A stretch of 64,000 nt of DNA from an uncultured Treponema sp. (lineage in GTDB: Bacteria; Spirochaetota; Spirochaetia; Treponematales; Treponemataceae), in contig CAKUTI010000002.1 of assembly GCA_934691925.1 (NCBI GenBank), positions 48,987 through 112,986 of the forward strand. The letters are read 5' to 3'. Both the position numbers and the translations under genes were made by a program. Below the pieces are notes generated by a model. The model saw nothing but the letters and a program-made list of their open reading frames with translations, was not told where the DNA came from and did no database searches. Every line of letters begins with the position of its first letter. Positions within the stretch are counted from its first letter, which is position 1. This document shows, in pieces, positions 20,950-61,995 of this stretch.

Positions 20950-21200
20950 CAAAACAGCGAATCTGATTTTATGGATTGCTTCGCTCGTGTTGCAATGACG
21001 GAAATCTTTAGCTTGCAATGCTGAGGCGTTTTTCCCAAAACAACGGAGAGTTTTTAGAAGTCATAAAAAAATGCTGAGACCAAGATAAAAACCGCGATTT
21101 CAGCATAAAAAAGTTTTTAAGTCCTAAAAAAAAGCTTGCTGAACAATTTTACTCGTTCAGCAAGCTTTTCATTTTCTTTTCTATATTTCTAATTCCTATA
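20950..21200. terminator. Convergent intergenic region with bidirectional terminators
   Basis: An AAGCTTGCTGAAC/GTTCAGCAAGCTT stem of 13 bp at about 21131-21167 flanked by A and T runs will terminate both strands. A second hairpin with ATGCTGA/TCAGCAT arms lies near 21072-21106. A REP-like piece (GGATTGCTTCGCTCG, GCAATGACGG) lies near 20972-21005. Confidence 0.75.
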
Positions 21201-24873: not shown

Positions 24874-24939
24874 ATGAATTTCTCATTTAAGGAAAATAGC
24901 AGCTAATTACACAGGTTGAGCCTGCGAAACCAAAATGCA

Positions 24940-25062
24940 AGCCGACACGGATGTCGGCTGAAAGCAATTTCATCCCCGCGAGTTTTCGCCAGAAAACTTG
25001 TCTGCGACAGGAGGTCGCAAGTTCTCGTAAGAATGAAAATTACAAGGATGTAATTTTCATTC
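24940..25062 (+). ncRNA. Modular multi-hairpin element copy 1, GGA loops (CsrA-sponge-like candidate)
   Basis: Consecutive hairpins: AGCCGACA-CGGA-TGTCGGCT (24940-24959), AAAGCAA linker, GAGTTTTC-GCCA-GAAAACTT, GCGAC-AGGAG-GTCGC (25004-25018), GTTCTCGTAAGAA linker, and GAATGAAAATTACA-AGGA-TGTAATTTTCATTC (25031-25062). Three loops present GGA on the plus strand, and TACAAGGATGT fits the known CsrA consensus. The second and third hairpins compete, because AACTT at 24996-25000 can also pair with AAGTT at 25019-25023. It lies between divergent genes, upstream of the esterase promoter (TATAAT at about 25093). Whether it is transcribed is unknown. Confidence 0.5.
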
Positions 25063-25152
25063 CGCATATTTTAGACAAAATTCACGCAAATTTATAATTA
25101 CAGACCGCAAATCTCGGGCTTAGAATCTTTGTATTGGAGGAAAATTCTGAAT

Positions 25153-37926: not shown

Positions 37927-37967
37927 AAAAGGCTGCTGAAGCAATTTCTGCTCCGGCAGCCTTTCTT
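37927..37967. terminator. Bidirectional terminator between slyD and the chemoreceptor gene
   Basis: AAAGGCTGC and GCAGCCTTT arms with an inner GAAGC/GCTCC stem, flanked by A and T runs; serves both converging genes. Confidence 0.85.
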
Positions 37968-56612: not shown

Positions 56613-58910
56613 CTAATACAAAAGCTCGCGGACAGTTTCGGCTGGAGTTTTGCTTTCGTAAAGCCAGCCGTAAATTGCCGCCGCCGAGACAAGCTTTCTT
56701 CCGTATTCGCGGGTCTCGGAAAAAGGAAGCGTTTCAAGAAAAAGATCCGTAGGAATTCCGCAAGGCCCGCGCGGAGCGTTTCCAGTTGAAGCAGCCCAGT
56801 CCTTTTGAGCCGCGGAAATCCAGCCGCGCACGTGGGTCAAGCCTGCGTTGTACGCAAAAAGCGCGAGAAGCTCGTTTTTTTCAGGAACTCGTCCAATCAG
56901 ATTTGAAAGATAATGCGAGCCGAACATCAAATTCGTCTCGGGATTTAAAATGTCATACTCTTCGATTTTCGCTTTTTTAGCCTCGTCCGCCGCTGTCGAG
57001 TCCATAAGCTGCGTAAGCCCGGAAGCTCCGGCATGGCTTGAAACTTGGCTGTCAAAAAAACTCTCGCTACGCACAAGCGCGTACAGAAGATATTCAGGAA
57101 TTCCGTTCTCGGCGCAGGCTTTTTCAATCTCGTTTCTGTAAAAGCGAGGAAAAGTCAGCTCCAAAAGATCAAGAGGAATTTTTCCTTTCGCAGAATTATA
57201 GCCGCGCGAAGCGATTCTAAGGCTTTGAACGTTGTAGTCGTTCTTGTTTGCAGAATCCAAAAGAGCGCAGCGATTCAAAAATCTTGAAGCATTCACAAAG
57301 TCAAAAACCGAAAGAGAATCTCGGACTGCAAGATATTCCGTGTAGATTTTATGAGGAAAACCGAATGCAGCGTAGCCCGAAAGCAGTCTTCCGGCAGGCT
57401 TCTGCTCAGATTCAGCAATCTCGTCGATTTCCGGGATTTTCTCCTTTGAAAGCATCATCGAGCGAATCATCTCGTCCTCGGAAAGATTCAGCCTTTCAAG
57501 CGCGCAAACTTTATAGTAAAGGCTTCCGCCGCCGCCAAGAACTTTCGTGAACGCGTCAACTGTCTGCCGCGTCTTCAAGCCTTCCGCGCCCTTAGCAAGC
57601 CCCTCCTCAATCAGGCGGCCTGAAATATAAGCGTACTTTGCCTGAGTCTCCTCGCTGAAATTCGAATTTGTCTCTTTCCAGACCTCAAAAAAATCCTGCC
57701 ACTTATGGCTTGAAAGAAGAAGAACCGAGAGCGAGTCGAAAAAATCATCAAAATAAGAAGGGCTGTTGATTTTAGAGCCGTAAGTTTTCAGCGTTGAAAT
57801 AATGTCGTCAGTCGAAGTGCGCAGCTGAAAGTTAAGAAGATACCAGAGGCAGTTGTCAAACTGATTTCCGTCGGCCGCGTTTTCCAAAGCCGAGCGGAAG
57901 CGACTTAAAGTCTGCGTCCTGTAGCGTCCTGCCTTATCGTAAAGCCGTGCCGCGTAAAAGTAAGCGTAAAAAGCCTGCTTCGAATTAAGATTCTGCGCCA
58001 TGCGGTCAAATTTCCGCGCGGTCGCAAAATAGTCGTCAGTTCCGTAAAGCGCGGCTTTTCCAATGTCTGACAAAATCTGGCACTCGACTTCCTCTCCGAA
58101 ATTGTCAAAAACAGAAAGAATCTTGTCGATTTGCCTGAAGCACTCGATATATTTCCGCCTGTAAACCGCAACGCGGTAGCCGATTATCGTCTGCCTCGGA
58201 CTTTCAATCTCCGAATCCTCAGTAAAAAAATCCTCAAAATCTGTCTGCGGCTCCAAGACTTCGGAGACAATATCGCCGTTCCTGTCGAATTCCGGCGCAG
58301 AAGAATGTTCAAGAATTCTGTAGCGGTCAAGACTTTCCTGAAATTTTCTCGCGTGCTCCTGAATCCGCTCCAGCTGCCGAAATTCAAAATCCTTGTAGCT
58401 CTGATAAATTTCAAGATGCTCTGATGAAAGCGGACGCGAGACAAACCATCTGTAAAACTCGCTTTCAAGGCGGCTGTCCTCTTTTTCAATCAACGAGAAC
58501 ATTCTAAGCGCAACCAGCTCGTTTGAAGATTCCGCCAAGTCCAGCCCGTCTGTAATCTCGATTACTTTTGAAAATTCTCCGTCGCGGTAAAGCTCCCTGC
58601 AAGCAAAAATCTGCGCTTCCTCGTCAGCAAAATGCTCGGCAAGATAAACCGAAGCCGAAATCCGCTCCTTGACGCTTCCCAAAAGCGTAAGCGACTCCGC
58701 GCTTCTCCGTGCGACAAGCTCGCTTCCTTTCTCGCGTGAAATCCTAAACTTGCGGACCGCTTCCTTTTCATCTCCAGAATCAGCGTCTTTCAATCCTAAA
58801 AAATAATACGAATCATTTCCAAGCCTCTTCTGAGCCGCGCCGCCCACATCAACAGCCGAGCAAGAAGAAATCAAAAACAAGACAGCAAGCAGCACAGAGA
58901 TTTTTTTCAT
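56613..58910 (-). CDS. Soluble-lytic-transglycosylase-like lipoprotein
   Basis: A 765-residue lipoprotein (FLISSCSA). The N-terminal ~590 residues are helical repeats, as in the U- and L-domains of Slt70. The C-terminal SLT domain has LVRSESFFDSQVSSHAGASGLTQLM (in part: LVRSESFFD, with catalytic Glu) and NLMFGSHYLSNL, FAYNAGLTHVRGW. It cuts glycan strands of peptidoglycan. ATG 58910 follows TAAAAT by 6 nt without a ribosome site. Confidence 0.92.
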   Translation of the reverse strand: MKKISVLLAVLFLISSCSAVDVGGAAQKRLGNDSYYFLGLKDADSGDEKEAVRKFRISREKGSELVARRSAESLTLLGSVKERISASVYLAEHFADEEAQIFACRELYRDGEFSKVIEITDGLDLAESSNELVALRMFSLIEKEDSRLESEFYRWFVSRPLSSEHLEIYQSYKDFEFRQLERIQEHARKFQESLDRYRILEHSSAPEFDRNGDIVSEVLEPQTDFEDFFTEDSEIESPRQTIIGYRVAVYRRKYIECFRQIDKILSVFDNFGEEVECQILSDIGKAALYGTDDYFATARKFDRMAQNLNSKQAFYAYFYAARLYDKAGRYRTQTLSRFRSALENAADGNQFDNCLWYLLNFQLRTSTDDIISTLKTYGSKINSPSYFDDFFDSLSVLLLSSHKWQDFFEVWKETNSNFSEETQAKYAYISGRLIEEGLAKGAEGLKTRQTVDAFTKVLGGGGSLYYKVCALERLNLSEDEMIRSMMLSKEKIPEIDEIAESEQKPAGRLLSGYAAFGFPHKIYTEYLAVRDSLSVFDFVNASRFLNRCALLDSANKNDYNVQSLRIASRGYNSAKGKIPLDLLELTFPRFYRNEIEKACAENGIPEYLLYALVRSESFFDSQVSSHAGASGLTQLMDSTAADEAKKAKIEEYDILNPETNLMFGSHYLSNLIGRVPEKNELLALFAYNAGLTHVRGWISAAQKDWAASTGNAPRGPCGIPTDLFLETLPFSETREYGRKLVSAAAIYGWLYESKTPAETVRELLY

Positions 58911-58922
58911 AGAACAATTTTA
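58911..58922 (-). promoter_or_regulatory. TAAAAT box 6 nt before transglycosylase start (leaderless candidate)
   Basis: Minus-strand TAAAAT 58922-58917, TGTTCT, ATG 58910. Confidence 0.45.
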
Positions 58923-58968
58923 ATGGAAATAAAAACGTTTGAAAACGAGGCAAAAAACAGAAAAAAAA

Positions 58969-59247
58969 ATTGCCGCATGGAGCGACGCTAGCAAGCGTTG
59001 CGTCGCGCAATAAAGCAAAGAGAGAATTTTCACAGAAAATTCTCGTAAGAAGAGGAATTAAAAAGCCTATCCCACGGATGGGCTAAAAGCAAGTAAATCT
59101 CCACAAAGCTGAGTTTTCGGAGAAAACTCGTTATGAACACAAAAATCAAAAAAAATTGCCGCACGGATGCGGCAATAAAGCAAAGAGAGAATTTTTCTCA
59201 GAAAAATTCTCGTAAGAACAGAAATTACAAGGATGTAATTTCTGTTC
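58969..59247 (+). ncRNA. Modular multi-hairpin element copy 2, three units (CsrA-sponge-like candidate)
   Basis: Three units, each with a GGA-loop hairpin, an AAAGCAA linker and a GAGAA-type hairpin. Unit a: GCATGGAGCGAC region then GAGAATTTTC/GAAAATTCTC (59022-59044). Unit b: AGCCTATCCCA-CGGA-TGGGCT (59064-59084) then GAGTTTTC-GGA-GAAAACTC (59111-59129). Unit c: ATTGCCGCA-CGGA-TGCGGCAAT (59155-59176), GAGAATTTTTC/GAAAAATTCTC, and GAACAGAAATTACA-AGGA-TGTAATTTCTGTTC (59216-59247). At least five GGA loops lie on the plus strand, while both neighbours are on the minus strand. Arms differ from copies 1 and 3 but stay complementary. Confidence 0.55.
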
Positions 59248-59250
59248 TAG

Positions 59251-60963
59251 TTATTCCGAAGGAATCAAAATGTCTGTTCCTGAAATAATCAGGTCTGGAT
59301 TCTTGATATGGTTGTAGTTCGCGATTTTCGGATATTTCCACGGATTCTTATAGTAAGAATCCGACAAATCCCAAAGAGTGTCTCCCCAGCGGATATGATA
59401 TTTCACGTCAGGCTTTTTCTCCGCTTTTGGAGCTGGAGCCGGAACAACTTTCTCAGGCTCTTTTGCAACAACAACCTTGTCCTCAAGGGCAGGAGCAGCC
59501 TCGCTTTCATTTTCTGCCACAACAATCTGCACAGGAGACTCATCAACAGGAGCGGCTGGCTCGGCATTTTTCGCGCCATCATCTGGGAGCTCGGAAACCG
59601 CAGATTTTCCGCTGTCTGAAATCTCAGTTTTTTCCATATATCTCGTGTTGCGAGACCTTATCAGATTGTATTTTGACGGAACGATAAAAAGAACCAAAAT
59701 TGTCGCAAGAACACAGATTACCGCACAGATTATGCAGATAACCACAGGAACGCGCGTCTTTTTCTCGCTGTCCTCGTCGTAGACCGAAGCATGCTCGCCG
59801 TTCATCGTCTCCTTGTCATACAAATCAGAAAAATCCATCGCAGAGCCGTTTGTGTAGCCCGCGCCAGAATTTTCCGAAGACGGAGAACTTTTCAAGCTGT
59901 CAAGCGAAGCGTCCAAATCAGAAGTGTCAAAGTCATCAAGAGCCGAAGTGTCAAATGCAGTGTCAATGTCACTTTCAGAAGCAGGTTTTGAAGCCAAAGC
60001 AGACTCTGCCTTGAACTCGTCGTCATCAAAATCAGGCAAATCGCCAAAATCAAGCCCTGTCGTGTCAGCAACTATATTGCTGGCCGCAGCCGTTGCTTTT
60101 CCGTCAGAATTATTTTCTCCAGAATCCGCGCCGCTTTCAGAGATTTTAGTCTCATCGGAATCAAAATCGTCTGTATCAAAATCAGGCAGGTCAAAATCGC
60201 CTGTTGAAGAATCTGAAACTGTATCATCGGCAACTGTCGCGTCGGAAGATTCGTCAGGAACAGCTTCCTCTCCAGTTGGAACTGGACTGTCAAAATTCAT
60301 TCCCTCAAGCGTGTTGTCCGCAATTCCCAAGTCGTCGGCATTTTCAGAATTTGGAGAAGACTCCGCCAAATCAGAAGCAGCATCAGGAATTTCTGTCTTG
60401 TCAGAATCGTCAAAGCTGAACGGCATATCCTCAAGCGCGTCAGACTTTATCTCAGGCAAGTCGTCAGGAGACAAAGCAACGTCCTTTTCTTCCTCCTCGG
60501 CCAAAGTGTCGTCCGCCAAGTCGTCAAAAGAATAATCCTCGCCGTCAGATAAAAGACCGTTCGCTCCGTCATTTTCGCCTGAACCAGATTTTAATGACGG
60601 AGCAAAATCAGCAGGGCTTGCCTTCTCAGCAAGCGTCTTTGAAACGAGATTAACTTCCGTCTCGCTTTTTTTGCCGGTTTCAGGGTCAATCACCTCGGCA
60701 GAAAGATTGTTGTCCTCGTCAAGGCCGAGCGAAAGATGAAGCTCCGGCTCGCCGTTCGGGTGCGGAACAAGCTTCGTAACCTCAAGCGTGTCAACGTATT
60801 CCGCGTCGTCCATCGTGCCAGTTTCAGAACGATACAAGTCAATCTGAACTTTTGTCTGATTGTCTTTCGCAGTTGTCAAATCCAACATTCTCTTTTTTGG
60901 AGTTCCCTCCTCGAGAATTGGATAAAATGTTCCATCTGCAAGTTTTATTCCGATTGTCTTCAT
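59251..60963 (-). CDS. Membrane protein with Hsp70-substrate-domain-like N-terminus and C-terminal LysM
   Basis: A 570-residue protein. Residues 1-110 resemble the beta-sandwich substrate domain of DnaK (LTTAKDNQTKVQIDLYRSE, PHPNGEPELHLSLGLDEDN, DPETGKKSE). Residues about 115-400 are a disordered Asp/Ser-rich stretch. A single transmembrane helix (about 407-430; VVICIICAVICVLATILVLF) precedes a Pro/Ala-rich linker and a LysM domain (about 522-569; YHIRWGDTLWDLS). The N-terminus is therefore cytoplasmic and the LysM periplasmic, on peptidoglycan. GGGGAAAG precedes the ATG. Confidence 0.82.
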   Translation of the reverse strand: MKTIGIKLADGTFYPILEEGTPKKRMLDLTTAKDNQTKVQIDLYRSETGTMDDAEYVDTLEVTKLVPHPNGEPELHLSLGLDEDNNLSAEVIDPETGKKSETEVNLVSKTLAEKASPADFAPSLKSGSGENDGANGLLSDGEDYSFDDLADDTLAEEEEKDVALSPDDLPEIKSDALEDMPFSFDDSDKTEIPDAASDLAESSPNSENADDLGIADNTLEGMNFDSPVPTGEEAVPDESSDATVADDTVSDSSTGDFDLPDFDTDDFDSDETKISESGADSGENNSDGKATAAASNIVADTTGLDFGDLPDFDDDEFKAESALASKPASESDIDTAFDTSALDDFDTSDLDASLDSLKSSPSSENSGAGYTNGSAMDFSDLYDKETMNGEHASVYDEDSEKKTRVPVVICIICAVICVLATILVLFIVPSKYNLIRSRNTRYMEKTEISDSGKSAVSELPDDGAKNAEPAAPVDESPVQIVVAENESEAAPALEDKVVVAKEPEKVVPAPAPKAEKKPDVKYHIRWGDTLWDLSDSYYKNPWKYPKIANYNHIKNPDLIISGTDILIPSE

Positions 60964-61039: not shown

Positions 61040-61139
61040 ACAAGGAGCGACGCTAGCAAGCGTTGCGTCGCGCAATAAAGCAAGGAGAGAACTGAAAGTT
61101 CTCGTTAATAAAAAAATTACAGGATGTAATTTTTTTATT
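61040..61139 (+). ncRNA. Modular multi-hairpin element copy 3 (CsrA-sponge-like candidate)
   Basis: Forty bases (61044-61083) are identical to copy 2 (58979-59018), including GCGACGC/GCGTCGC. Then GAGAACT-GAA-AGTTCTC and a 33-bp hairpin AATAAAAAAATTACA-GGA-TGTAATTTTTTTATT (61107-61139), which overlaps the stop codon of the minus-strand gene at 61135. ACAGGATGT fits the CsrA consensus on the plus strand. Confidence 0.5.
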
Positions 61140-61995
61140 TAGCATTTGCTGAAGCGTTTCCGCTGCCATATGAATATTCGGCAATTCCGGCAAGCTCGTT
61201 CACAGTCGTTCCGAATTTTTCAGCAACGTTGTATGTCGTCTTCTTTGTGATGTTTCCGTTTGAGTCATATTTATAGATGATTCTTACAGTAAGCTTGTTC
61301 TCTGCGTCGTAAGTCTGCTCCTCTGTAATCTGGTAAGAAGCGTCAAATCTGAAAACTGTCTTGTGCGTGAGCTTTGCAGCCAGGTCTGAATAAGCGATTT
61401 CGGAAAGTTTTCCAGCATCGTTGTAAGAATAAGCCGCTTTCTGCTCGAGGGAGCCGTTCGCATTGTAAGTCGCGACCTCGCCAGTTCTTCCTTTCTCGTC
61501 GTATTTTGTGATTATTTTTGAAAGAAGCGCGCCGTCGGCATTGTAATAAGACTCGTCAACCTGCTTTCCGTCAGAAATCTTCCAGATTGTCTTGTTCACC
61601 AAAGAGTCAGAAGCATTGAATTCAGACTCCTCGGTCCTGTTCCCGTTAGCGTCGTATGCGCATGAGATTTTCCACTGGATTTTTCCGTCAGCGTCTGTGC
61701 AGACCTGCTCCGCAAGATTTCCTTTCGCGTCATAAACATAGGCGATTCTATCGACAACCGCGCCCTTGCTTGTAAGCTCTGAAGACTCGGTCTCTTTTCC
61801 GCTCGCGTCAAAAACGTGGGAATATCTTGCCTTTGGAGAACGATAGTAATCTCCGAATTTCTCCGTGATTGTATATTCAGTTTTTGTATATTCCCTTTCT
61901 CCGCCCAGCGGCTTTAGCGAGACATCATTATCAAAAGCGTAGAGACTTACCGCAAATCCAGCAGCCAATGCTGAAGCAAATAAAATTCTTTTCAT
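61135..61995 (-). CDS. Secreted YD/RHS-like repeat protein
   Basis: A 286-residue protein with signal peptide (ILFASALAAGFAVSLYAFDN). From residue ~55 it consists of ~22-residue repeats of the type YDAKGNLAEQVCTDADGKIQ, YDANGNRTEESEFNASDSLV, YDEKGRTGEVATYNANGSLE. These resemble YD repeats, but the protein is far shorter than RHS toxins and has no toxin end. It is probably a periplasmic or surface repeat protein of unknown ligand. It is followed by the LysM gene after 170 bp. Confidence 0.78.
   Translation of the reverse strand: MKRILFASALAAGFAVSLYAFDNDVSLKPLGGEREYTKTEYTITEKFGDYYRSPKARYSHVFDASGKETESSELTSKGAVVDRIAYVYDAKGNLAEQVCTDADGKIQWKISCAYDANGNRTEESEFNASDSLVNKTIWKISDGKQVDESYYNADGALLSKIITKYDEKGRTGEVATYNANGSLEQKAAYSYNDAGKLSEIAYSDLAAKLTHKTVFRFDASYQITEEQTYDAENKLTVRIIYKYDSNGNITKKTTYNVAEKFGTTVNELAGIAEYSYGSGNASANAK

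Follow-up and report, generated by a model that had tools for sequence, protein, structure and literature searches.

The hairpin cluster at positions 58969-59247 of the 64,000-nt stretch of DNA analysed here (the window) consists of tandem copies of a three-hairpin element, H1-H2-H3, related to the Rfam motif TD-2. The arms of these hairpins co-vary while their loops stay fixed, and copies come and go between related genomes. We tentatively read the cluster as tandem copies of a dispersed, gained-and-lost TD-2-type element whose GGA-bearing strand would, as RNA, form a two-site CsrA-binding module, a reading that we regard as plausible if a little short of an even chance. An earlier note on this DNA had proposed a single dedicated, CsrB-like sponge locus; what was found is rather a dispersed family, already filed in Rfam as TD-2.

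Hairpin layout and relation to TD-2

The earlier note had described at least seven tandem hairpins in 280 bp, arranged in repeating units. The MFE fold of positions 58950-59260 on the plus strand indeed contained seven hairpins (-101.8 kcal/mol); 100 shuffles of the same sequence averaged -58.4 (sd 5.05), and none folded as well (z -8.59). The minus strand folded almost equally stably (z -7.74), so that fold energy alone cannot choose the strand. Repetition of the units was evident from an identical 24-nt stretch at 59007 and 59172 and from two adjoining stretches that were 85% and 89% alike. The cluster is laid out as tandem copies of one element in the order H1-linker-H2-linker-H3. The features of the window are as follows, with the basis of assignment where it was recorded.

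24940-25062, plus strand: second element site, flanked by divergent genes; match to our own model at 24939-25065
24940-24959, plus strand: H1 of the second site, with AGCCGACA/TGTCGGCT arms
24980-25026, plus strand: H2 of the second site, branched, with an inner GGA-loop hairpin at 25003-25019
25031-25062, plus strand: H3 of the second site
56613-58910, minus strand: lytic-transglycosylase gene
58970-59010, plus strand: H1-like hairpin of unit 1 with an inserted extra hairpin (GCGACGC...GCGTCGC); sequence, fold, repeated 28-mer
59022-59044, plus strand: H2 of unit 1 (GAGAATTTTC ACA GAAAATTCTC); sequence
59064-59084, plus strand: H1 of unit 2; sequence, fold
59111-59129, plus strand: H2 of unit 2, with a GGA triloop (GAGTTTTC GGA GAAAACTC); sequence
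59145-59176, minus strand: opposite strand of unit 3 H1 plus a T-run, terminator-like, downstream of the LysM gene
59155-59176, plus strand: H1 of unit 3, loop CA[CGGA]TG; sequence, Rfam TD-2 match
59187-59211, plus strand: H2 of unit 3; sequence repeat
59215-59248, plus strand: H3 of unit 3, 15-bp stem, loop ACA[AGGA]TGT, ending 2 nt away from the LysM stop codon (minus strand); sequence repeat
59251-60963, minus strand: LysM-domain gene
61044-61140, plus strand: third element site; TD-2 match of 29.4 bits, own-model match at 61062-61141
61044-61071, plus strand: extra-hairpin module of the third site
61087-61103, plus strand: H2 of the third site
61107-61139, plus strand: H3 of the third site
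61135-61995, minus strand: RHS-repeat gene

The regular unit order described earlier fails in unit 1, where no H3 was recognisable and the first hairpin resembles an H1 with the extra hairpin inserted. The 28-mer carrying that hairpin is identical at 58979-59006 and 61044-61071, in the H1 of two element copies; it also creates short spurious ORFs starting MRDATLASVAPCG. In unit 2, the CCCA/TGGG hairpin with a GGA loop exists as an alternative fold, CCCA[CGGA]TGGG, and only there is GGA in the loop; in the MFE fold GGA is paired and CAC occupies the loop. The AGCCGACA/TGTCGGCT arms that had been assigned to the first copy of the cluster actually belong to the second site, outside the cluster. 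GGA lies on the plus strand at all three element sites of the window, and H3 of the third site overlaps the stop codon of the RHS-repeat gene. A spirochaete host, as had been supposed, is supported by the transglycosylase, whose named relatives are from Treponema (closest genome found, Candidatus Treponema equifaecale, 63% identity over the best segment). Two further intergenic inverted repeats, at 21130-21169 and 37928-37964, have long stems of 17 and 16 bp and are unlike the element.

The TD-2 model (RF03162) matched 59157-59252 on the plus strand with 46.5 bits against a cut-off of 48.7 (E 2.6e-5, 2.3 kb searched), and 61047-61143 with 29.4 bits, again under the cut-off. At both places the full 98-position model (1-98) was aligned, with the three hairpins in order. 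Neither match appeared in whole-window Rfam scans, which also gave no match in the window to TD-1 (RF03155); the Csr/Rsm RNA families of Rfam had no match there either. Because the window copies score below the cut-off, we filed them as a divergent variant of TD-2 (RF03162, clan CL00124), and this assignment is firm. In common with TD-2, the element has three hairpins in the same order, the same H1 and H3 loops and a GAG...CTC H2, and it occurs in Treponema in tandem and dispersed copies; it differs in that the best window copy falls slightly below the cut-off. Rfam types TD-2 as 'Gene; sRNA' and TD-1, which shares its clan, as 'Cis-reg'. The earlier note had held that a known mobile repeat with no RNA would point to a DNA element; the match is to a known repeated motif, but one filed as RNA.

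Copies of the same layout passed the RF03162 cut-off in three loci (L080, L098 and L108) and at one place in a fourth (L120), at 11 places across five stretches, each 20 kb long, of the T. denticola-like genome G174, and at 26 places in 20 loci. When seven loci were searched at E up to 5, RF03162 found only two places (L120 1656-1749 and L122), and our own model found copies missed by RF03162 in L114, L117, L118, L126 and L129. TD-1 gave one match in the five T. denticola-like 20-kb stretches, and this overlapped an opposite-strand TD-2 match. At L202 1119-1274, a minus-strand TD-1 overlaps a plus-strand TD-2, so that the two Rfam families may partly be views of the same arrays. Both are reportedly from Weinberg 2017. 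The literature searched, which leaves out most subscription journals, yielded no account of a role for TD-1 or TD-2 RNAs and nothing relevant on palindromic T. denticola repeats or dispersed CsrA hairpins.

Spread across Treponema and arm covariation

Our own model, R2, was built from 45 copies by way of a two-sequence seed and then structure-guided searches; a MAFFT seed alignment (A2) was dropped because it misaligned the arms. In a phylum sample of 198 genomes, RF03162 matched at least 13, at least 11 over the cut-off, and R2 matched at least 24 at E up to 0.001, both counts being lower bounds since some 20 candidates were scored per genome. With E up to 0.1 and 150 candidates scored per genome, R2 gave 30, 30, 43 and 31 matches in T. 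ruminis and three relatives (gut/rumen), a few of them overlapping on opposite strands. By contrast, RF03162 gave T. ruminis none in the phylum search, with its 20 or so candidates per genome, and we therefore call the window form a divergent TD-2 variant. This variant extends the TD-2 motif into gut and rumen Treponema that are largely missed by Rfam's model.

The pattern CANGGATG-N35..60-CANGGATG had 49 matches in 10 genomes, some of which resemble chance matches in genes, against one for a backwards control. A pattern with exact linkers had no match in the species-genome collection, which we do not take as absence since linkers vary between species. Among phage records, the element had no match. 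At L063 10530-10820 and L004 9970-10270, a larger repeat with GGGGCAGGACTCG / CGAGTCCTGCCCC inverted arms also contains CANGGATG hairpins; it is probably another hairpin repeat family.

The note's argument that arms differ while staying complementary was borne out. In the 45-copy alignment, changes on both sides were present at 34 of 34 pairs, double-change cells numbered 378 against a mean of 93.2 in shuffles, and 94.8% of cells paired against at most 55.4% when slid; these figures lean upward because the structure guided the alignment and hairpins were picked as its initial seeds. The arms thus change together while the loops stay, and the structure is under constraint. At the LysM site of the window we claim no orthologous covariation, since only one of 30 LysM loci (L244) had an own-model match and the T. 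ruminis LysM gene lies elsewhere, at G004:402153; this position also ruled out L114 as the orthologue of the site.

Pairing within the arms bears on whether the constraint acts on RNA. Among 109 distinct GGA hairpins, folded with equal penalties, there were 1235 Watson-Crick, nine G-U, no A-C and six other pairs. That G-U outnumbers A-C (two-sided p 0.004) favours the GGA strand as the RNA that folds. G-U is nevertheless far rarer than in tRNAs (9 of 1244 Watson-Crick and G-U pairs, against 73 of 854 in 39 tRNAs predicted in the DNA fetched for this analysis), with the reservation that equal penalties undercount G-U near stem ends. Plain selection on RNA does not predict this scarcity.

GGA loops and CsrA

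The CsrA-like GGA loops noticed earlier proved to be confined to particular hairpins. Over three sets of copies, CANGGANG occurred in 78 of 105 H1, 72 of 105 H3 and none of 105 H2. For the 36 distinct copies selected with Rfam, the counts for H1, H3 and H2 were 27, 22 and 0, with CAGGANG in a further three and five; for 42 model-selected copies, 28, 27 and 0 (CAGGANG 3 and 9); and for 27 regex-seeded or window copies, 23, 23 and 0 (CAGGANG 0 and 1). Because the regex set was seeded with CANGGATG, part of its loop count is built in, which is not so for the Rfam set. The Rfam-selected and model-selected sets supplied 129 GGA hairpins, which we examined without assuming the motif. G stands two positions after GGA in 127, C three before it in 106 and A two before it in 107, the base directly before GGA being free. 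In 42 hairpins a base other than T follows GGA, and A would be unable to pair with it; A nevertheless stands two before GGA in 34 of these, and C, giving the CAGGANG shape, in eight.

We take the element loops to resemble the solved RsmE-hcnA hairpin. According to the accessible part of PMC4894983, CANGGANG apical hexaloops are high-affinity CsrA/RsmE targets. An 11-of-12 fit of TTACAAGGATGT to RUACARGGAUGU, claimed earlier, was confirmed; an excerpt of PMC6692469 gives this as the E. coli CsrA consensus, beside mAwGGAs for C. jejuni. If the GGA strand were transcribed, H1 and H3 would each show a C[ANGGAN]G apical hexaloop, with H2 in between, and each unit would thus offer a CsrA dimer two sites. 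In unit 3, 66 nt separate the two GGA, against an optimal spacing of 18 nt in the excerpted text of PMC4894983.

The csrA gene, whose presence the earlier note had asked about, was matched in 12 of 14 element-bearing or related genomes and in 189 of the 198 genomes of the phylum sample. None of the nine without a match is among the 24 with R2 matches, though chance allows as much, and csrA is so widespread that its co-occurrence with the element is uninformative. In G226 (2.0 Mb, completeness not given), csrA was not found despite an element beside glmS. In T. denticola, the CsrA homologue TDE2355 adjoins fliW, according to the portion of PMC9481697 available.

Judged from the loops, CsrA may bind the GGA strand. 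Transcription of that strand, and titration or regulation through the element, would be further steps: dispersed units might titrate CsrA, or make the transcripts in which they lie subject to it. As in CsrB/RsmZ sponges, there are repeated hairpins with CsrA-type GGA loops, several per putative RNA; the difference is that element copies are dispersed, numerous and in both orientations. A wider proposal is that TD-2-type elements together make up a mobile network, in many copies, of CsrA-binding RNAs that have two sites each and spread CsrA sites to gene ends. This seems to us rather unlikely; were it true, free CsrA in these Treponema would be set by tens of dispersed modules and not by one sponge RNA. 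The CANGGANG signature names CsrA as a testable protein partner of the orphan TD-1 and TD-2 motifs. Should CsrA bind, a repeat family would be seen distributing the sites of a regulator, and a spirochaete regulator encoded beside fliW (PMC9481697, in part) would gain a large, fast-changing set of RNA sites.

Turnover, placement and alternative readings

The element turns over between relatives. At one site in T. denticola-like genomes, G041 seems empty, G029, G135 and G182 each have their own subset of the hairpins, and G174 has more. After glmS, inspection by eye of the first 125 nt placed the element in two of the 23 orthologues that were readable, out of 30 with T. ruminis among them; G002 has an apparent remnant, and G251 has none despite a 93% identical GlmS. 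After a Na/Pi transporter gene, T. ruminis and G251 have the element, which was not seen in four others. At L080 896-978, a copy lies in frame within an open reading frame, presumably dapF, and adds about 25 residues; further copies in the same genome also lie within ORFs. At L203 11713-13056, two TD-2 copies in opposite orientations flank a multi-copy gene that we take to be of the formylglycine/C-type-lectin kind; several paralogues carry a 3' TD-2, and there may be a link to diversity-generating genes.

This behaviour would suit a palindromic DNA repeat (REP- or RPE-like) that is mobile or prone to slippage and has no RNA role, its loops being recognised in single-stranded DNA by some enzyme and their likeness to CsrA sites coincidental, a reading that we consider somewhat unlikely. 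Presence or absence and differing hairpin subsets at orthologous sites, the in-frame copy in the L080 gene and the near-perfect Watson-Crick pairing of the arms all speak for it. REP/RAYT and Rickettsia palindromic elements are short palindromic repeats at gene ends, and the element resembles them in its short palindromes, its placement at gene ends and its one in-frame copy; it differs in that its arms turn over while the loops stay, and in that the Y1 transposase (PF01797) is present in four and absent from eight of 12 element-rich genomes. The Y1 family is therefore not a general mobiliser. Flanking direct repeats of variable length, scoring at least 11, were found at five of 69 copies against none of 331 control pairs. 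In L126, however, which has the best of them, a second, degenerate H1 comes after the repeat, and the relative L278 lacks that repeat, so that tandem duplication fits as well as target-site duplication or better. A DNA repeat also predicts neither CANGGANG in H1 and H3 with none in H2 nor the excess of G-U over A-C.

Placement was assessed for 70 copies with simple codon-usage gene calls. In 24 the sole abutting stop codon is an antisense one at H3, in 13 it is a same-strand one just ahead of H1, and in seven both occur; three copies are inside ORFs and 23 elsewhere. For copies antisense to the adjoining gene, the window cluster included, the other strand may help to end that gene's transcript. 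A consensus scan of 58800-59350 found no plus-strand promoter-like site and four terminator-like hairpins, on the minus strand only, against 0.6 expected. With copies in both orientations that come and go at orthologous sites, this does not agree with the simple sponge of the earlier note. We find it quite improbable that the element chiefly marks or ends the transcripts of abutting genes on either strand, its GGA loops being of little weight: the terminator-like sites, the 44 of 70 copies with a stop codon adjoining at least one side and the A-runs directly before H1 in several copies (T-runs past H1 on the other strand) argue for such a role, but the same-strand copies listed generally lack a T-run after H3, 23 copies are away from stop codons and three within ORFs, and the loop motif and its absence from H2 are left unexplained.

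Both alternatives account better than the CsrA-binding module for placement and turnover, but not for the loops. Counting against the module are the antisense copies, the lack of a promoter-like site in the scan, the wide GGA spacing, G226 and the rarity of G-U.

An antisense stop codon lies near H3 in 31 copies, in 12 at distance 0 from the model end. Of the 12 antisense genes at this distance, nine have Glu as their last residue, against 27 of 273 other genes at the same loci (p 1.5e-7, the distance grouping having been chosen post hoc on data already seen). This excess may point to a junction preference next to GARTAR, as a DNA repeat might have. One of these Glu-ending genes is presumably GlmS, named by its C-terminus. 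All 23 GlmS orthologues with a readable 3' end finish in Glu, most of them without the element, so that the Glu codon there is the gene's and not the element's. Some copies (L186 3021-3110, L116, L123 and L167) adjoin an opposite-strand, ribosome-binding-like CCTCCTTT, and several copies are preceded by a short CCGCGTTAGCGG-type hairpin.
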